DNA from: Exiguobacterium profundum
GTDB lineage: Bacteria > Pseudomonadota > Alphaproteobacteria > Rhodobacterales > Rhodobacteraceae
Assembly (NCBI GenBank): GCA_013693875.1
Contig: CP059262.1
Coordinates: 3,531,698-3,540,216, forward strand
Length of the DNA: 8,519 bases
Direction of reading: 5' to 3'
The notes under the pieces were generated by a model. The model worked only from the letters and a program-made list of their open reading frames with translations, was not told the origin of the DNA and searched no databases. Below are positions 1 to 8,519 of the stretch, piece by piece. The position numbers and the translations under genes are program-made. How positions within the stretch are numbered: the stretch's first letter is position 1; every line of letters starts with the position of its first letter.

Positions 1-60
1 TTGCTGATCACCTATGTGTTAGCGATTTCCCTCGCGATCCCGCGGTTCTTCGGACTATGA
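1..60 (+). CDS. 3' end of a membrane protein gene, possibly TRAP transporter large permease (DctM-like), partial
   Basis: Frame 1 is open from the window edge to the TGA at 58-60 and encodes a hydrophobic tail ending in AIPRFFGL. A hydrophobic last helix followed by a short L-x-x-P-R tail resembles the C-terminus of the large membrane subunit (DctM) of TRAP transporters, which carry organic acids, often sugar acids, across the inner membrane. Its stop codon overlaps the next gene's start (ATGA, 57-60), which supports a real coding end and translational coupling. Only 19 residues are visible, so the family is a guess from the tail and from the sugar-related neighbour; another polytopic membrane protein is possible. 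Confidence 0.5.
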   Translation: MLITYVLAISLAIPRFFGL

Positions 61-1850
61 CGCCCCGCACGGGCGATGGCTGGAACCCCCTCGCCGGGCT
101 TGGGATCGAGACCCGCGATGACATGGTCACGGCGCTGTGCCGCTTGCTCGCGCCGCTTGAACCCTACGTCAGCCCGGGCGGCGCCCGCATCAACCTCTCG
201 GCGGCCGGGGCGAGCTTCGACCGGGCGGCCATCGGGCTCGAGGGTTTTGCCCGCCGGTTGTGGGGTGCGGTTCCGGCCGCGATGGGCGGGCGCGATGTTC
301 TCGACTGGGAACAGGTGCGCGACGGCCTGTCAAACGGCTGCGATCCGGAACACGCAGAGTTCTGGGGGTGGCCCGGCCCCGAGGATCAGCGGCTTGTCGA
401 GATGGCGGCCATCGGCTTCGCCCTTCGGGCCGTTCCCGACCGGGTCTGGCTGCCCCTGCCCCGCGAGGCCCAAAACAATGTCGCAACCTATCTGCGACAT
501 GCCATCGCCCAGCATCATTCACCGAACAACTGGATGTTCTTCCGTCTGCTGGTCGCGGCCGGTTTGCGCCGGGCGGGTGAAGACGTGGCGGAGGCACCCG
601 TCGAAGCCTATCGCACGGCGATTGATGCGCTGTATCAGGGCGACGGCTGGTATCGTGATGGGCCGGGGCGGCGCGTCGATCACTATGTCGGCTTCGCCTT
701 CCACACCTATGCGCTGCTCCTGCACCGTCTTGCGCCAGAAACGGACAGCGGCGACCACCTTGCCCGCGCCCGCCTGTTTGCGCCCCAGTTCGCCGCCTGG
801 TTCGACGGGCATGGGCGCGGGCTCGCCTATGGCCGGTCGATGACCTATCGCTTTGCCATGGTGGCCTTTTTCGGCGCCTATGCCATGGCAGAAACGGCCG
901 CGCCCGTGCTGCCTTGGGGTGTGTTGAAGGGCATCGTCCTGCGTCACCTGCGCGATTGGGCCAACCAGCCCATCGCAGACCGGGATGGTGTTCTGTCGGT
1001 GGGCTATGCCTATCCGAACCCGAATATGGCCGAAGCCTACAATTCCGCCTGCTCCCCTTATTGGGCACTCAAGGCCTTTTTGCCTCTTGCGCTGCCCGCG
1101 CAGCATCCATTCTGGACGGCGACCGAGCAGCCGCTACCCGTTGATCTGCCCTTGGTTCAGCCCGCGCCCGGGTTCCTCTTGCAGCGTATGCCGGATCAGA
1201 CCGCGGCCCTCGCGGCAGGGCAAGAGGCGCAGGTCTTTCGACACGGCGCCGAGAAATATGCCAAATTCGCCTACTCCACAGGTTTTCCCTTCTGCGTCGA
1301 GGCACGCGACGCCACGCTGGCGACCGCCGCGCTCGATTGCATGCTGGGCGTTCAAGTGAATGGAAGACCATGGACTCCCCGACTGTGGTGCCTGTCGGCA
1401 GAAGTACATGATAACGCCGTGCGTTCGGTCTGGCAGCCCTACCCGGATGTCACCGTCACGACCTGGCTGGTGCCCTGGCAGGGCGGGCATATTCGCAGCC
1501 ACACGATCACGACTCCGTTCGAGATAGACACGGTCGAGGGCGGGTTTGCCGTTGCCCGGTCCGATGGAGACCATGACAGATGGCAGATCAGTCAGGGTGA
1601 CGCGAAGGTCATTGGCGTGGACACAAGCCAAATCGCCGACTTGGTGGGCCTGCGGCACGCCCGCGTGCACGGTCCAGATCCCAACGGCAGTCTACGCCAT
1701 GCAAGGATTTGGGTGCCGCAGCTTTTGCACCGTCTCGGACCGGGCACATCAGTGCTTGTCTGCTGGTGCGGCTCGGGTGCGTTAGATCCGACACTCGATC
1801 CTGCGTCGGCTTTGGCGCATCTTGCAACGATCATCGGGGGAACGGCGTAG
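57..1850 (+). CDS. DUF2264 domain-containing protein (possible glycoside hydrolase-type enzyme)
   Basis: A complete 597-residue protein of a length typical for DUF2264. Recognisable features are the N-terminal NPLAGLG (10-16), W158 in NNWMFFRLL, the segment DGWYRDGP with the following VDHYVGFAFH (197-216), and YGRSMTYRFA (258-267). Such aromatic-rich motifs with conserved Asp and Arg fit an (alpha/alpha) barrel in the N-terminal two thirds; the C-terminal third (from about 360) looks beta-rich. I recall that DUF2264 members include beta-glucuronidases classed as GH154, but I cannot verify this and the substrate here is unknown. No signal peptide is seen, so a cytoplasmic role is likely. The ATG at 57 overlaps the upstream stop (ATGA), which favours this start and an operon with the membrane protein. 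Together they suggest uptake followed by processing of a uronate or oligosaccharide. Confidence 0.88.
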   Translation: MTPRTGDGWNPLAGLGIETRDDMVTALCRLLAPLEPYVSPGGARINLSAAGASFDRAAIGLEGFARRLWGAVPAAMGGRDVLDWEQVRDGLSNGCDPEHAEFWGWPGPEDQRLVEMAAIGFALRAVPDRVWLPLPREAQNNVATYLRHAIAQHHSPNNWMFFRLLVAAGLRRAGEDVAEAPVEAYRTAIDALYQGDGWYRDGPGRRVDHYVGFAFHTYALLLHRLAPETDSGDHLARARLFAPQFAAWFDGHGRGLAYGRSMTYRFAMVAFFGAYAMAETAAPVLPWGVLKGIVLRHLRDWANQPIADRDGVLSVGYAYPNPNMAEAYNSACSPYWALKAFLPLALPAQHPFWTATEQPLPVDLPLVQPAPGFLLQRMPDQTAALAAGQEAQVFRHGAEKYAKFAYSTGFPFCVEARDATLATAALDCMLGVQVNGRPWTPRLWCLSAEVHDNAVRSVWQPYPDVTVTTWLVPWQGGHIRSHTITTPFEIDTVEGGFAVARSDGDHDRWQISQGDAKVIGVDTSQIADLVGLRHARVHGPDPNGSLRHARIWVPQLLHRLGPGTSVLVCWCGSGALDPTLDPASALAHLATIIGGTA

Positions 1851-2239: not shown

Positions 2240-2267
2240 CTTAAGCGATTGATCTATATTGTAATTT

Positions 2268-2314
2268 TGGTTGCGGGGGCAGGATTTGAACCTGCGGCCT
2301 TCAGGTTATGAGCC
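2268..2314 (-). pseudogene. 3' fragment of initiator tRNA-Met (CAT): att site of an integrative element
   Basis: The minus strand reads GGCTCATAACCTG (anticodon CAT in a seven-base loop, 3' anticodon stem), then the variable loop, a T arm with stem GCAGG/CCTGC around TTCAAAT, and the acceptor 3' strand CCCCGCA plus ACCA. This matches the 3' half of alphaproteobacterial tRNA-fMet. The 5' half is missing: sequence right of 2314 has no D arm, and the 5' anticodon stem no longer pairs beyond two bases. A 3' tRNA fragment of this length, ending at the anticodon stem, is the usual duplicated core left by tyrosine recombinases that target tRNA genes. It is not expected to make a functional tRNA. Confidence 0.88.
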
Positions 2315-2570: not shown

Positions 2571-3557
2571 TCATGGTTGGGTCTTGCCCACATGCATGAT
2601 CATCAATGGTGCGTCATCTTCGGCCTCTGCCACCTCGATATAGCTTCGAGCAGAGATTCCCTGCAAATCTAGGTGGTCAACAAGGCTGGGCAGGCTAGCA
2701 ACACGGTGGCGCGTTTCTGAGAGTCTGACTGCCACGTCGCGTGCGTTCTGTTCAGCTGCTTCCGTCCCGCCGAGGCGCCCAACCAGAAGGTCTGCGGGCA
2801 TTTCCGTCGTCAACTGCGCGAGCTTCTGAAGCTGGCGAGATGCCTGATCCTTTGCCGCCATCGGTTCGTCGAGAAGGAACAGAGCCTTGATTTGCGCGCC
2901 GCCAGTGACCGCCATTCCGTCGAGCAGCAGTCTGAGGCTATCGATGGGAATTGCCTCCCGCGTGTAGAGCAGCTTCACCCTATTGTGCATGGCATCAAAG
3001 GTTTCGTGCAGAACCTGCTCGGCCTCAGTCAGGAGTGGCCTTCGATCGACGCGCACCGCGGCGCCATCTACGCGTTCAATCCGGTTGGTAGCCCTTTCGA
3101 GCAGTTGTTGAAGTTCATATGCGCGCCATTCGTCCCGGAAGGCGAGAACGCTATCGTGTGTGGACTGCACGTCGCGGCGCAGCTTCTCTAGCCGCTGACA
3201 GACTATCGCCGTTCCAGCGGCACTGACGCCTAGGCTCGCGATCGACCCTGCTAGAGTTGCCACCTGCAAACCCTGCATGGCACCCAGCATCGACTGCATC
3301 ACATCGATACGACGCTTGATCTGTTCATTCTGGACGACGTTGATAGCGCCTGTGACCAAAGAACCTGCCGATGTTACACCCGTCAAAGACGAGAGAACCG
3401 AGCCCAGCGGCTGGATGGCTGAGAACGCGCCCGTTTCCTGCAGGTGGGCCACAATGCCACCACCGCTCGCATTGATCAGCAGCGCTCCTCGGCGGATCAG
3501 CTTTCCCGCCTCCCACATTGCTTGCAGTTCTGGCGGGACGACAAACGAATAGGTCAT
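2571..3557 (-). CDS. Unknown protein with hydrophobic helices, second member of a membrane-active pair
   Basis: A 328-residue protein of no family I can name. The N-terminus has an IRRGALLINASGGGIVAHLQ-type segment (21-40). It is followed by a Ser/Gly/Val-rich moderately hydrophobic stretch (44-75) and a stronger Ala/Gly-rich hydrophobic stretch (92-119) that could be one or two membrane-inserting helices. The rest (120-290) is predicted helical with heptad-like patterns (RLEKLRRDVQ, ELQQLLERATNRIERV, RQLQKLAQL). There is no signal peptide. Its ATG overlaps the stop of the upstream gene (ATGA, 3557-3554), so the two are translationally coupled and probably act in stoichiometric amounts. Hydrophobic hairpin plus long helices is the layout of alpha-helical pore-forming proteins, but that function is inference. 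Base composition looks lower in GC than the nuclease gene upstream. Confidence 0.85.
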   Translation of the reverse strand: MTYSFVVPPELQAMWEAGKLIRRGALLINASGGGIVAHLQETGAFSAIQPLGSVLSSLTGVTSAGSLVTGAINVVQNEQIKRRIDVMQSMLGAMQGLQVATLAGSIASLGVSAAGTAIVCQRLEKLRRDVQSTHDSVLAFRDEWRAYELQQLLERATNRIERVDGAAVRVDRRPLLTEAEQVLHETFDAMHNRVKLLYTREAIPIDSLRLLLDGMAVTGGAQIKALFLLDEPMAAKDQASRQLQKLAQLTTEMPADLLVGRLGGTEAAEQNARDVAVRLSETRHRVASLPSLVDHLDLQGISARSYIEVAEAEDDAPLMIMHVGKTQP

Positions 3558-4261
3558 GATGCGTTCTCGATACGCTGTTTGTATGCTTCATCAAGGCGAC
3601 GCAGATGGCGGCTAAGGACAGACCCTTCCGCGCTATCGGTTGCAACAAGCAACCGCGTCACCGCATCCTGGACCAACTGCAGATAGGCCTGCCGCTTTTC
3701 TCCGACCGCTGAGGCCGCTGACCAAGCAAAAACCGCAGTGCCGACTGTAATCGCCACTGGCGTCACGACGGCCGCGGCTGCGCCAAGACCAATCATCCCA
3801 AGCAGTCCTGGCGAGGCGCGTGCCGCAACGGTTGCCGCTGCAGCTGTTCCGCTGCCACCGAGGGCCAGTTTGCCGATATCCCACATGCTCCAGCCAAGAT
3901 ACTCGGTTAGGTCATCCATGCCGGACAGGGTTGCGGGAAGTACATGCTGCAACTCACTTACCAAGCACGCCTCGGCTTGGTGAATTCTCTGGAGGAGTTC
4001 AAGCTCAAGTGCCTTCCTCTCCGAGGATATTTCCCACATCAGTTCCTGCGTAGGCAATTCTTTTACGCGAGCCCGCGCCAACTCTCGCAACTCAGCATTG
4101 CTATGCTGGCAGAACGCACGCGCAACCCAGCGCCGCTCCTGCCACCAGTCGATCGCATCCGCTTGTCGTAATGGGTCAGCAATATCCCGGGGCGATCTAC
4201 GTCCGTCCTGTTTCGGTGCATCTGAGCAATCAGGTTCAGATATTTCATTGCGCTCTGCCAT
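3554..4261 (-). CDS. Unknown protein with Ala/Gly-rich membrane segment, first member of a membrane-active pair
   Basis: A 235-residue protein, not recognised. Residues 1-35 are polar and probably disordered. Residues 36-110 are helical and charged (ELRELARARVKEL, ERKALELELLQRIHQAEACL). Residues 129-186 form a long hydrophobic block rich in Ala, Gly and Val (two likely helices with a Pro-Gly break near 151). A helical tail (187-230) follows. The ATG at 4261 has AGGTGA (4277-4272) ten bases upstream. It starts 77 bases after the nuclease gene's stop, a gap holding only a weak AGCCG/CGGCT hairpin, so it may be read through from the upstream operon or have its own promoter. Its stop overlaps the next start by four bases. 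The shared architecture with that neighbour suggests a two-component membrane-active complex. It could also be a holin-like or membrane-anchor protein. Confidence 0.83.
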   Translation of the reverse strand: MAERNEISEPDCSDAPKQDGRRSPRDIADPLRQADAIDWWQERRWVARAFCQHSNAELRELARARVKELPTQELMWEISSERKALELELLQRIHQAEACLVSELQHVLPATLSGMDDLTEYLGWSMWDIGKLALGGSGTAAAATVAARASPGLLGMIGLGAAAAVVTPVAITVGTAVFAWSAASAVGEKRQAYLQLVQDAVTRLLVATDSAEGSVLSRHLRRLDEAYKQRIENAS

Positions 4262-4338
4262 CTCTGATCACTCACCTGACCGCCCAAAATGAAGCCGCGG
4301 GATTCTTTCTTGGAAAAACCAACGGCTGCCCTCTATTC

Positions 4339-5937
4339 CTAGGAAAGACTCCGCTGGAGCGCCACACGATAACTGTAGGGCGCCACTTCTTCGACTGTCA
4401 CCATATCTCCGGCGCGAACGCCATGCCGTTCGAAGAACTCCCGGATCCAGCCGCGCTTACGGAAGAACTTCTTCTCGCCATCGAGGTCTGTCATGACAAC
4501 GGTCGCTCCGCCACAGCCGACGGCAATTTCGCGCTGGGCAGCCGAGGCACGGTTCGACCCACCGATCGCATCAGCCGGAAACTCTTCGAAGAAGCTCCTG
4601 AGATAGATGTGGTTGTTGTCGATGTTGCCCTGCGTGATTTCGGTCGTTCCGATGTGGCGCCCGGCATGCTGGCGCGGGTTCGGGTCTGACGACATCGATG
4701 CGGCCGCGGGCTCCTGGACAACCATCACGGTGTTGTCGTCGTCCTCGATCAGGTCGAAATCCTCGCCGTCCACAATCACAATCTGGCCCGTCGGAACCGG
4801 AGGCTGCGTGCGAACAGGCTGAACGCCTTCGGCGCGAAGGACCACTTCCGCTGCTGCGCGGGCATCCTCGCCCGCATCGTGGTGCTCGAACATGAGGCCC
4901 AGATGCTGCTTGAGGCTTGCAAGACCGTGTCCACCGTTGCCCCGCAACTCCGGCCAGGCGGCGCGGGCGACGTGGACGCTATCGCGCCAGTCCCACTGCG
5001 GGACCGGCAGGTCGCAGTTGCCACAGGCAGCGGCGACGGCGCTGCGGTCAAAGCCAGAGTGCTGATAGACCGTCGCGCCGTTCAGCGCATCCCGCAAGAC
5101 CGGCAGCACCTCGCCAAATGTCGGGGCGCCCTGCACCGTGCGGGCACTGATTCCATGGAGATAGGTGAACACCCAGCGGTCCACCTTCGGATCGACATAG
5201 GTCACCCAGGTCTCGATGGAATTGTCGGGGCGCACGCAAGCGACACCGATCTGGCAAATGCTACCGCGGTCGTTGTTCGCGGTCTCGACATCCAGAGCAA
5301 AGAAGCGGAATGGGCCCTTGGGGAATGGCGTGACACGCGCCTGCCGGATGAGAGCGGGCTTCGGTGCTGGCGCCGCTACAGGAGCAACCAGCGCGGAAAG
5401 GAAGCGCAGGCGCTGCCGTTCGATGGCCGCCTTTTCGCGGACGCCCCAGCCAAGGCGGCGCAGCGTGGCTTCGACCAGATCGACCGGTTCGTCATAGGCC
5501 TGCATCCGGCGCCGGTTCCAGGCGATGGCGTGGTCGGGTGCAAGGGAGAGGATCTCGGCCTCCAGCCGGGCAACGTCCTCCGTGTCGGGCAAGGCAAACC
5601 AGACCGCGCGGCAGTGATCGACGACGAACTCGTTCCGCAACGCCTTGGCGATGTCGCCATCCGCCTTGGTCAAAGCATCCGTCCGGTCGCGCCACATCCG
5701 GCCGCTATTGTACATGGCCGAGAAGTAGTGGCTCATGCCTTCCGATCCGGTCCGATGGCGCTGGTGGATCCGCTCGTAGAAGGTCTGATCGGTGGAACTG
5801 GTCGAGCCGATGTAGCGAAGATCACCATGGTGATCGACGAGGCCGTAAAGGCCACGTGCATCGCGCGGCGCCTGAGCAGTCGGGCGGGGTGCCGCTTCAA
5901 GCAGGGCGGAAAGCAGGTCTTCGGCAGAGAAACGCAT
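4339..5937 (-). CDS. GIY-YIG nuclease / DEDDh 3'-5' exonuclease fusion with C-terminal B3-like DNA-binding domain
   Basis: About 532 residues (numbered from the ATG at 5937). The N-terminal GIY-YIG domain shows GLY at 29-31, RYIG at 41-44, Y54, R56 and LEAEIL with Glu at 126 and 128. The central DEDDh (DnaQ-like) domain has DVE (D216, E218), HSGFD (D297) and H353 with D358, so all catalytic acids plus His appear present. After an acidic linker (about 385-400) the C-terminal domain (about 432-528) has NHIYLRSFFEEFPADAIGGSN and AGDMV, like bacterial B3-type DNA-binding domains of some restriction enzymes. Start choice: a GTG at 5955 would overlap the upstream stop, but GGAG at 5948-5945 lies 7 bases before the ATG at 5937 and 4 before the ATG at 5940, so 5937 is preferred. 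The protein probably cuts and degrades DNA at recognised or damaged sites. DnaQ-UvrC-like fusions are known, but this domain order with a B3 end is unfamiliar. Confidence 0.88.
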   Translation of the reverse strand: MRFSAEDLLSALLEAAPRPTAQAPRDARGLYGLVDHHGDLRYIGSTSSTDQTFYERIHQRHRTGSEGMSHYFSAMYNSGRMWRDRTDALTKADGDIAKALRNEFVVDHCRAVWFALPDTEDVARLEAEILSLAPDHAIAWNRRRMQAYDEPVDLVEATLRRLGWGVREKAAIERQRLRFLSALVAPVAAPAPKPALIRQARVTPFPKGPFRFFALDVETANNDRGSICQIGVACVRPDNSIETWVTYVDPKVDRWVFTYLHGISARTVQGAPTFGEVLPVLRDALNGATVYQHSGFDRSAVAAACGNCDLPVPQWDWRDSVHVARAAWPELRGNGGHGLASLKQHLGLMFEHHDAGEDARAAAEVVLRAEGVQPVRTQPPVPTGQIVIVDGEDFDLIEDDDNTVMVVQEPAAASMSSDPNPRQHAGRHIGTTEITQGNIDNNHIYLRSFFEEFPADAIGGSNRASAAQREIAVGCGGATVVMTDLDGEKKFFRKRGWIREFFERHGVRAGDMVTVEEVAPYSYRVALQRSLS

Positions 5938-5951
5938 CATCCAACTCCAGA

Positions 5952-6896
5952 TCACATCGACATCAGCTGGCGACGCTCGATGCGCTTCCAGTCGCGCCCA
6001 GAGACAATACCCCAGTTGCCCGCCTCGTTCGGACGGCGCCAGCGCGGCGTGGCCATCTTCTGCAGGGCAATCAGCGCCTCGTCGAAGGACGGATACTGAA
6101 CCTCCTCGCCCTTGGCGCCGATCATGAACTTGCCGCCGCGCGCGAGACCGGGATGGAAGTGGCTACCGTCTGCGGAGACGGGGACGAAGACCACCTCGTC
6201 CGAGAAATCCGGGCTCGGCGCTTCGGGCACCACCTCATCGGGCTGCTGCCAGATCGAGGCAAAGAATTCCTTCCGACCCTTCAGCCACGCGGCTGCGCTG
6301 ACGGCTGTCACCCGCTGGCCGACCTTCTCCAGCCCGCCATCGCCGCTGGACAGGATGTTCCGGATACGGCCTTCCGTGACGCCGCCGAACAGGGCGAGCG
6401 ACTGCAGGTCGACCTCGCCCGCGCCGGTATCGATGGCATGGCGCGAGAGGGCGAGATTGATGATCCGGGCAATCACGCCCTGCGGTTCCGGGTTCGCAGC
6501 CTGCCGAAACTGGTCAAGCTGCTGAGCCAGCGTTTCGACCCAAGGCTTGCGGGCATCGAACGGAATTTCGGCAGGAAGCACACCGTAAAGGCCGTAGATG
6601 CCCGCGTTGTCGATCAGCTTCGTGCCCGTCCAGTGCGGCGTCAAGACCGGATCATAGGTTTCGAACGCCTCGCGCCAGGTCTCACCCTCGACATCGGGAC
6701 CATGCAGCATGGCGAAGAGATGCTGCGCGACTTCCTCTGCGCCGAGGATCATCTCGATCACGCGGAAACGGGAGGCGAGAAGCTCGAGAAGCTCGGGGCC
6801 GTAGTCCCAGTTCTGCCGGTAGTCGATGTTGTCGGCGCTGAAGTATCCGGCCAGTTCGCGGTGGAACCAGGTCTCGCGGCGCTGTTCGGCGTTCAT
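5952..6896 (-). CDS. Protein of unknown function with internal helix-turn-helix
   Basis: A 314-residue soluble protein. The N-terminal half (1-150) is helical with aromatic residues and no motif I recognise. Residues 163-184 (DLQSLALFGGVTEGRIRN) form a convincing helix-turn-helix, followed by AAAWLKGRKEF (201-211), a pattern seen in small alphaproteobacterial DNA-binding domains. The C-terminus contains HPGLARGGKFMIGAKGEE (248-265) and TPRWRRPNEAGNWGIVSGRDW (283-303), a conserved-looking Trp/Arg/Asn block. The ATG at 6896 has no good Shine-Dalgarno of its own but overlaps the stop of a 10-codon minicistron (ATGA). Its stop lies just before the nuclease start, so the two are co-translated. It may guide the nuclease to DNA or regulate the operon; both are inference. 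Confidence 0.85.
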   Translation of the reverse strand: MNAEQRRETWFHRELAGYFSADNIDYRQNWDYGPELLELLASRFRVIEMILGAEEVAQHLFAMLHGPDVEGETWREAFETYDPVLTPHWTGTKLIDNAGIYGLYGVLPAEIPFDARKPWVETLAQQLDQFRQAANPEPQGVIARIINLALSRHAIDTGAGEVDLQSLALFGGVTEGRIRNILSSGDGGLEKVGQRVTAVSAAAWLKGRKEFFASIWQQPDEVVPEAPSPDFSDEVVFVPVSADGSHFHPGLARGGKFMIGAKGEEVQYPSFDEALIALQKMATPRWRRPNEAGNWGIVSGRDWKRIERRQLMSM

Positions 6897-6925
6897 GGTT
6901 TCGGGGTCAGGGCGGGCATATTCAT
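6893..6925 (-). CDS. 10-codon minicistron MNMPALTPKP, coupled to the downstream gene
   Basis: An ATG at 6925-6923 follows AAGGA (6937-6933) by seven bases, an excellent ribosome binding site. It opens a frame of ten codons ending in TGA at 6895-6893. That stop overlaps the ATG of the 314-aa gene (ATGA), which itself lacks a Shine-Dalgarno sequence. The AAGGA also touches the stop of the 62-aa gene. The simplest reading is that ribosomes initiate here and restart at the next ATG. It could simply deliver ribosomes or act as a regulatory leader. Alternatively the downstream gene relies on leaderless-like or weak initiation. Confidence 0.5.
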   Translation of the reverse strand: MNMPALTPKP

Positions 6926-6936
6926 GGTCTTGTCCT

Positions 6937-7125
6937 TCAAGCGTGCAGGCGGCGGATCATAGCGCGGAGGTTGTGGCGCGCGCGGTGATCGGAGGGTGTG
7001 GATGCCGCGATGAGGAACCCTCTCTCGAAATGAAGAGCGTAGTGACGGCCGCGCGACTCGATGCCGAGCAAGTCAACACCTTCAGCACGACACAGCTGCT
7101 GATACTCTCTGACGACCTTGCGCAT
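6937..7125 (-). CDS. Small protein with TPSD motif, first gene of the leftward operon
   Basis: A 62-residue basic protein. It starts at the ATG at 7125, with GGAG (7137-7134) eight bases upstream and a promoter about 28 bases before that. The C-terminal half has GRHYALHF, a hydrophobic strand FLIAAS, then TPSDHRARHN and a basic helix. A strand pair followed by TPSD-x-R-A and a terminal helix recurs in short phage and island proteins, and it recalls small dsRBD-like (HicA-like) folds. I cannot assign a family. There is no HicB-like partner beside it, so a HicAB toxin-antitoxin call is not justified. As the first gene after the regulated promoter it may be an RNA- or DNA-binding regulator. Confidence 0.7.
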   Translation of the reverse strand: MRKVVREYQQLCRAEGVDLLGIESRGRHYALHFERGFLIAASTPSDHRARHNLRAMIRRLHA

Positions 7126-7160
7126 GAGGCAATCTCCGTGAAATCATATTTGTTGCCTCA

Positions 7161-7190
7161 TGTATAGTCGTCCGCTAGCGGGTATGTCAA
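7161..7190 (-). promoter_or_regulatory. Sigma70-type promoter of the leftward operon
   Basis: Read leftward, TTGACA (7190-7185) is a perfect -35 box and TATACA (7166-7161) is a -10 box one base from TATAAT, with 18 bases between. Transcription should start near 7154, giving a leader of about 28 bases before the ATG at 7125. No other gene lies between, so it serves the whole leftward operon. Confidence 0.75.
7172..7181. promoter_or_regulatory. Palindrome CCGCTAGCGG inside the promoter spacer, probable operator
   Basis: A perfect 10-bp palindrome lies between the -35 and -10 boxes, where a bound repressor would block RNA polymerase. The regulator is unknown; the helix-turn-helix proteins of 314 aa and 199 aa are the candidates in the element. 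A related split form, CCGC-GCTAA-GCGG, occurs within 7295-7307. Confidence 0.45.
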
Positions 7191-7592: not shown

Positions 7593-8192
7593 ATGGCTTT
7601 GCCGCCACGCGTTTACTACACCCTTCAGGAAGTCACGGCCCGTTGGGGCTGCAACATCGCCGACGTCGCAGGCTGGGCCGCGGCGGGCAAGTTCCACATC
7701 ATGACCGGCATCCCCGCCGTTCGCTGCAGCGACGAGGTCGTCGCGGGCAAGGTGGTGCTGTCTCCGATGGAGCTGTTGCCCCTGTTCCGCCGCTGCGGCA
7801 CGGGCCCGACCGAAGGCGTCATGCGCCGCATCCAGCCCATTGGGCGCCAGGACTGGCTGCTGATCACCGATCCTGCGGGCGGCATTCCCGTCGCCGTGGC
7901 CGACATGCTGATCCTGGCCGAGGAGGTGCATGCCTTCGAGGAAGAGAACGAGATGGTCCGCCGCGTCACAAGCGGGCCGGGCGCCACCACGCCCTATGAT
8001 TGGGAAGGCATGATGGTTGCCCTGATCCATCGCATTCACGAACGGGGCCTCCCGGCCACACAGGCCGAGCTGGTCGCGGAAATGCAGGACTGGTTTGCGG
8101 ATCAGACGGACGGCCAGAAGATCCCCGACAGCCGCAGCATCCGGCGCAGGGTGACGCCAGTCTGGAAGAAGCTGCGAGGAGAAGGATCGTGA
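7593..8192 (+). CDS. Putative DNA-binding protein (N-terminal HTH-like, C-terminal winged-helix-like)
   Basis: A 199-residue soluble protein. The N-terminus YYTLQEVTARWGCNIADVAG (8-27), followed by WAAAGKFHI, is the MerR/excisionase-type helix-turn-helix layout. The C-terminus (136-196) has YDWEGM, then LPATQAELVAEMQDWFA and a basic SRSIRRRVTPVWKKL, a pattern of short alphaproteobacterial island and phage proteins that fits a second DNA-binding domain. The ATG at 7593 has GAGGA (7579-7583) nine bases upstream. The gene converges on the recombinase gene with 25 bases between. Candidate roles are recombination directionality factor, control of the element, or replication regulator; none is proven. 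Confidence 0.83.
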   Translation: MALPPRVYYTLQEVTARWGCNIADVAGWAAAGKFHIMTGIPAVRCSDEVVAGKVVLSPMELLPLFRRCGTGPTEGVMRRIQPIGRQDWLLITDPAGGIPVAVADMLILAEEVHAFEEENEMVRRVTSGPGATTPYDWEGMMVALIHRIHERGLPATQAELVAEMQDWFADQTDGQKIPDSRSIRRRVTPVWKKLRGEGS

Positions 8193-8217: not shown

Positions 8218-8519
8218 TCAGGCAGACTTGCGCCCGCCCTGATCGCCGACGTCATGGACGAGCCGGGGCTTCGGCCGGAAGGCGCTGGCAACGGCGCCGA
8301 CCCCGGCGCGCAGGGGCGAATCCATCAGGTGGGCATAACGCAGGGTCGTCTGCATCTGGCTGTGACCCAAGAGCTTGCCGATCATTTCCAGCGAAGCCCC
8401 GCCACTGACGAGGAGCGATGCGAAGGTGTGGCGCAGGTCGTGGATCCGGACGTCCTGCAGCCCGCATTGCTTCTGGACCTGCGCCCAGAACCGCCGCACC
8501 TCCTGCACCGGCTGGCCGG
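8218..8519 (-). CDS. Tyrosine recombinase / phage-type integrase, C-terminal part (5' end beyond the window)
   Basis: The frame is open to the right edge and encodes about the last 100 residues of a catalytic domain. It shows RIHDLRHTFASLL (the HxxR box with its Arg), LLGHSQMQTT (the second conserved His) and TLRYAHL, whose Tyr (codon 8337-8335) is the nucleophile that attacks DNA. All conserved residues of this part are intact. The family is usually 350-420 residues, so the start should lie near 9400. The internal GTG at 8508 is not a real start. It is the enzyme expected to insert and excise the island at tRNA-fMet. Confidence 0.95.
   Translation of the reverse strand, partial: GQPVQEVRRFWAQVQKQCGLQDVRIHDLRHTFASLLVSGGASLEMIGKLLGHSQMQTTLRYAHLMDSPLRAGVGAVASAFRPKPRLVHDVGDQGGRKSA

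Follow-up and report, generated by a model that had tools for sequence, protein, structure and literature searches.

A JukB-family protein with a partner not detectably JukA: a likely anti-phage pair on an integrative island of Exiguobacterium profundum

In this work we analysed a stretch of 8,519 nucleotides of Exiguobacterium profundum (assembly GCA_013693875.1, contig CP059262.1, hereafter C1), which spans C1:3531698-3540216 of the 4.26-Mb genome, itself 83% complete, and which is referred to below as the window. Judging from its nearest named relatives, the genome probably belongs to the order Rhodobacterales. The original prediction described five leftward genes and a minicistron as one defence-type operon in which no named system could be recognised. 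The five leftward open reading frames (ORFs) and the minicistron are present exactly where they had been placed, according to the sequence and the ORF listing, while PADLOC and profile-profile searches now assign the last gene, B328 (hereafter B), to the JukB family. All together, the data favour the presence of two modules on a single integrative island, one of which, formed by A235 (hereafter A) and B, is likely an anti-phage pair that joins a JukB-family protein to a partner in which JukA is not detectable. The features of this pair, with protein lengths in amino acids (aa), are as follows.

2571..3557, minus strand: B328, JukB-family protein of 328 aa, with an N-terminal RxGALL..GxIVAHLQET motif and a C-terminal helical bundle.
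3554..4261, minus strand: A235, partner protein of 235 aa, in which long helices flank a hydrophobic block (residues 148-182); not detectably JukA.
3554..3557, minus strand: stop/start overlap of 4 base pairs (bp) between A and B, from the sequence.
4262..4338, no strand: gap of 77 bp that separates the cargo pair from the backbone genes, from the sequence; the DNA identity with genome G171 crosses it.

The assignment of B relies on several concordant comparisons. Specifically, the PADLOC JukB model matched all 40 members of the B family, the protein of the window included. In hhalign alignments, B scored 99.1% against six full-length JukB proteins (E 1e-18, 146 columns) and 99.2% against nine JukB proteins (3.2e-19, 220 columns), and reciprocal hidden Markov models (HMMs) of the B-type and JukB sets recovered 40/40 and 9/9 sequences, compared with 2200 shuffles. 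By these sequence criteria, B can be placed in the JukB family as a distant member. In addition, B carries a hydrophobic segment at about residues 100-118, so that the earlier description of two coupled proteins with hydrophobic blocks holds for both A and B, and the pair does look like the effector arm of a defence system, B being of the JukB family. We also observed a subgroup of divergent JukB proteins that are paired with JukA (L089, L091 and L092), whose distance from canonical JukB is about that of the B-type proteins.

The gene directly upstream of B encodes an A-type partner in 42 of the 45 distinct B-type loci (46 rows minus one contig met twice), the loci without it being L054, L055 and L005, the last one at a contig edge. 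A profile built with the partners from 25 of these loci matched 17 of the 19 loci outside the profile whose contig reaches upstream; when four close kin of the profile members were dropped, 13 of 15 were still matched, at 1.6e-10 or better, three Pseudomonas-family loci being among the 13. The same 4-bp overlap between A and B was found in 16 of the 27 loci for which an upstream ORF is listed. JukA was found beside B in none of the 45 loci. The ten JukB loci examined (six with full-length JukB, three of the divergent subgroup, and L070) showed a YaaW/JukA-type gene upstream in 10/10 cases and an A-type gene in none, considering that the three divergent loci entered this set after their JukA had been seen. 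A search for JukA across 34 whole genomes recovered it in all four JukAB genomes and in none of the 30 B-type genomes, which cover 30 of the 45 loci, the own genome included.

Consistently, hhalign of A against JukA gave 4.8%. A has no Pfam or NCBIfam family, Pfam giving nothing even at E values up to 1, and at 0.02 a tape-measure match is its one PHROG result. The kind of partner follows the tree of the B proteins, which holds 45 sequences (33 A-partnered, 10 JukA-partnered and 2 unassigned): it needs 2 changes, compared with 9.1 in shuffles, with the root left unsettled by long branches. In conclusion, as far as sequence comparison can tell, A is not detectably JukA and the A-B pairing is near-obligate. 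Two further observations concern these families. In two genomes of one genus (L067 and L068, about 400-2103), JukA is fused behind an N-terminus that by eye looks like an alpha/beta-hydrolase. Near-alike A-B pairs occur in Methylomicrobium sp. wino1 and Methylotuvimicrobium buryatense 5G (L057 and L061), each with an integrase-like gene, recognised by eye, 3-4 kb upstream.

Among known systems the closest is Juk of Pseudomonas aeruginosa, which is made up of JukA and JukB and is directed against jumbo phages. Like A-B, it consists of two overlapping genes, partner then effector, with an effector of the same family, similar protein lengths and a partner bearing a hydrophobic block. It differs in its sensor JukA (YaaW-type), which was not detected beside B or in the B-type genomes searched, and in its host, since A-B occurs mainly in Rhodobacterales and sphingomonads and in some Gammaproteobacteria. 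A second, weaker likeness is to the dynamin-like LeoBC of Eleos, which matched in 8 of 27 A members (best 1.1e-6), the A of the window covering positions 402-544 of the profile. The GTPase part was not found in A, and hhalign of A with one LeoBC-like protein gave 15.6%; the C-terminal LeoBC matches hint at a putative membrane-binding stalk in A.

The second module and the island that carries both comprise the following features.

4339..5955, minus strand: N538, 538 aa, ATG at 5940; GIY-YIG motif, DEDDh 3'-5' exonuclease domain and a variable C-terminal domain.
5952..6896, minus strand: D314, 314 aa, assigned to no known family; elsewhere, N538 relatives carry its C-terminal domain (about 232-308) as a fusion.
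6893..6925, minus strand: minicistron of ten codons plus stop, in frame with D314 in L021 and L036.
6937..7125, minus strand: H62, 62 aa, the small 'TPSD' protein, HicA-like by PADLOC and matching phrog_2053 in PHROG.
7161..7190, minus strand: promoter-like TTGACA - 18 - TATACA upstream of H62, found by eye.
7593..8192, plus strand: P199, island protein, phrog_13283 (PHROG match 7e-85).
8218..8517, minus strand: C-terminal part of a tyrosine integrase whose gene runs past the window (Phage_integrase 4.3e-13).
2265..2314, no strand: attachment-site-like 50-bp copy of a tRNA-Met 3' end, from DNA comparison within C1.

The small island proposed earlier is thus borne out as a mobile one, with an integrase, whose complete gene lies at L020 17916-19301, and an attachment-like tRNA-Met copy. 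The segment 2265-2314 is 98% identical to C1:3580773-3580822, in a tRNA-Met about 47 kb to the right of the window, while 2240-2314 is 91% identical to C1:3441064-3441137, about 93 kb to the left. The tRNA-Met is intact at both of these places and not at the copy of the window, and either intact gene may be the integration partner of the island. A DUF2264 protein lies at window positions 57-1850, outside the attachment-like end.

Evidence for two modules comes from genome G171, which shares the island backbone: its DNA is 87.7% identical from the integrase to N538 and on into A, as far as base 23 of that gene. From that point a 446-aa protein takes the place of A-B, and identity returns (77%) at the attachment-like end. 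A virus-collection contig equals the G171 contig in length (53,828 bp) and carries the same genes. The 77-bp gap, suspected from the start as a possible module border, does set two modules apart; the identity crosses it and stops 23 bases into A. Since another gene stands in its place on a shared backbone, A-B is cargo, whereas H62, D314 and N538 belong with the integrase. As for the replacing gene (L021:259-1599, minus strand), its product gave an Xre/MbcA/ParS_C match at 4.8e-4, below the cut-off, and no PADLOC match at 1e-5, and its first codons (MAERN.IS) resemble the start of A; it may be regarded as a candidate defence or antitoxin-like gene.

The distribution of the genes was then compared among 244 genomes of the order, in two draws: B occurs in 8 of them, although in G073 the match is marginal and spans 98 residues, while D314 occurs in 7; the two are found together only in the own genome. 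Moreover, in 25 of the 29 named-genome B loci examined for these neighbours, neither N538 nor D314 was seen near B within the available DNA, which for L038 ends just before A. The remaining loci are Paracoccus marinaquae (L036), with all five genes and P199, L037, with D314, N538, A and B up to the contig end, L039, with N538, A and B up to the contig end, and L040, with a distant D314 near B. Co-occurrence of the five genes, suggested originally as a check, is found, up to the contig limits, in three close relatives of this island (L036, L037 and L039), and in the wider draws B and D314 coincide in the own genome only.

Turning to the backbone genes, N538 contains the nuclease that had been foreseen: RNase_T matched at 4.2e-13, which identifies a DEDDh exonuclease domain, with PADLOC matches to DEDDh (3.6e-20) and to the candidate PDC-S48 (1.5e-17), the two of them lying over this domain. 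Residues D217, E219, D298, H354 and D359, numbered from the ATG at 5940, are invariant in the 7 aligned proteins. The N-terminal GIY-YIG match has an E of 0.17 and that of a GIY-YIG-annotated relative 6.4e-4, both below the Pfam cut-off. PRK07883 models also match the DEDDh domain of N538; PRK07883 proteins carry GIY-YIG in the opposite domain order. Compared with these DEDD exonuclease / GIY-YIG fusions, N538 shares the DEDDh domain and, below the cut-off, the GIY-YIG motif, and differs in the N-terminal position of the latter and in a third, exchangeable C-terminal domain. The exchangeability is read from sequence in relatives (L025:8627-10147 and L074:7441-8940) where the C-terminal domain of D314 replaces the C-terminus of N538, so that two neighbouring genes have swapped a domain. 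Plasmids hold relatives of N538 in 67 records; of the 20 listed, 16 match through the exonuclease domain alone.

D314 overlaps N538 by 4 bp, as A does B. Its homologues number 343, with no Pfam domain in any of the 120 listed, and D314 matched no PADLOC model; the helix-turn-helix once attributed to it was not found in domain searches, nor was any family. H62 matched the PADLOC HicA-like model at 5.6e-7 and phrog_2053 at 1.9e-7, with no Pfam match. Because full-length homologues exist for B, A and D314, and because N538 aligns with its relatives along its length, the genes of the window are more than chance ORFs. The codons of the minicistron continue the D314 frame in L021 and L036, so that in the window it is probably what a frameshift has left of an N-terminus of D314 that was once longer.

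The strong, operator-bearing promoter initially described was upheld in part. TTGACA (7190-7185) and TATACA (7166-7161), 18 bp apart, were located by eye, and TTGAC and TATA are kept at the same spacing in both aligned relatives, L036 and L021, although a consensus promoter scan did not report the pair at 7190-7161. The spacer palindrome CCGCTAGCGG is present in neither relative, which makes the operator reading weak.

Other defence genes lie in the surroundings. In the own genome, a type III restriction-modification pair is found about 6 kb to the right of the window, beside helicases matching DrmD and DpdF/GajB models; specifically, L071:5889-15233 holds the type III genes with a DrmD-like helicase and L071:15562-19998 a 1478-aa double-helicase protein matching the DpdF and GajB models. 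Near other A-B copies we noted BrxB/BrxC, an MkoA-like protein, a type I restriction subunit (REase_I), MzaB and WYL regulators, neighbours chosen by eye and with no control, from which no rate can be derived.

Other explanations were weighed against this background. That the five genes act as one defence system, a nuclease arm jointly with a pore arm, is suggested by their common direction, by one likely promoter and by their company in the window, in L036 and, to the contig limits, in L037 and L039. Nevertheless, the two halves occur apart, both in the 244 genomes and in most B loci, and in G171 another gene sits behind the same nuclease genes, so that this reading fails and we hold it to be very improbable. 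A different doubt concerns A, which could be a JukA homologue diverged past recognition, A-B then being a divergent JukAB. The gene order is the same, the length is similar, both genes overlap the effector gene and the C-terminal half is hydrophobic; one of 24 members of alignment A2 scored the JukA model at 0.053, and in a small set a few partners (L081, L086, L085, L044 and L040) gave cross-scores with E between 2e-4 and 0.01. The JukA of L081 reached 12.4 bits with the A profile, compared with 10.4 for the best of 2200 shuffles, while in the reverse direction the JukA profile gave A 9.8 bits versus 10.0 in shuffles. A very remote link is thus possible, while it appears unlikely that A is a diverged JukA.

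It is rather improbable that A-B is a toxin-antitoxin-like or membrane-stress pair, with B as pore toxin and A as its neutraliser, which would stabilise mobile elements and affect phages indirectly. The overlap of the two genes, and the presence of copies on islands and on plasmids, adjoining ccdAB and conjugation genes, would fit such a role, whereas the kinship of B with JukB and the selected examples of defence genes among its neighbours favour phage defence. More credit, short of an even chance, is due to the idea that H62-D314-N538 is a separate nuclease-based defence or anti-plasmid module, given the intact DEDDh residues and the GIY-YIG motif of N538, the C-terminal domains swapped between its relatives and the plasmids that bear them. 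On the other side, D314 has no PADLOC match, N538 scores through its exonuclease domain only, and in G171 all three accompany P199 and the integrase and may thus serve the island itself. We regard them as the nuclease module in the backbone of an island that bears an integrase, with a putative role of its own, which may be upkeep of the island or nuclease defence.

For the A-B pair, taken as an anti-phage system, a working model can be derived by analogy. According to the review PMC13282480, early phage proteins are recognised by JukA at the early infection vesicle, to which JukA then recruits JukB, and JukB assembles into tetrameric pores on that vesicle; PMC12931631 counts Juk among the few systems that hit jumbo phages at the first membrane vesicle. 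By analogy, A would take the place of JukA as sensor or recruiter: its hydrophobic block would place it either at the inner membrane or at a phage-made membrane compartment, where it would detect or mark infection, and B would there oligomerise to a pore, as reported for JukB, with loss of the phage compartment or cell death as the outcome. Sensing by A, pore formation by B and protection are all predicted. In PMC12735699, cloned JukAB gave no clear resistance against a phage panel, which was ascribed to a missing activating phage; a negative plaque test of A-B could likewise mean that the activating phage is missing.

What is new here is the partner family, the effector family being already known. 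Our literature search found nothing on JukB with another partner, although it did not cover the original Juk papers and absence is thus unproven. A tblastn search with the phiKZ chimallin matched 95 phage records, the phages being named for Pseudomonas, Erwinia, Serratia, Klebsiella, Escherichia, Xanthomonas and Burkholderia. We suggest, tentatively and with more doubt than confidence, that Juk is modular at both ends, with JukA serving many effectors and the JukB family at least two unrelated sensors, and that A-B serves Alpha- and Gammaproteobacteria as a pore-forming defence independent of JukA, one that senses membranes made or remodelled by phages, including in hosts whose genera gave no nucleus-forming phage in the chimallin search. 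If true, Rhodobacterales would be expected to have phages with membrane compartments that have so far gone unseen. An island that is shared while its cargo changes offers a clean handle for finding further cargo defences, and a JukB-type effector with another partner represents a natural swap experiment that separates the sensor task from the pore task. With the A-B pair one can also test whether phages that use membrane compartments as a hiding place are encountered by alphaproteobacteria.
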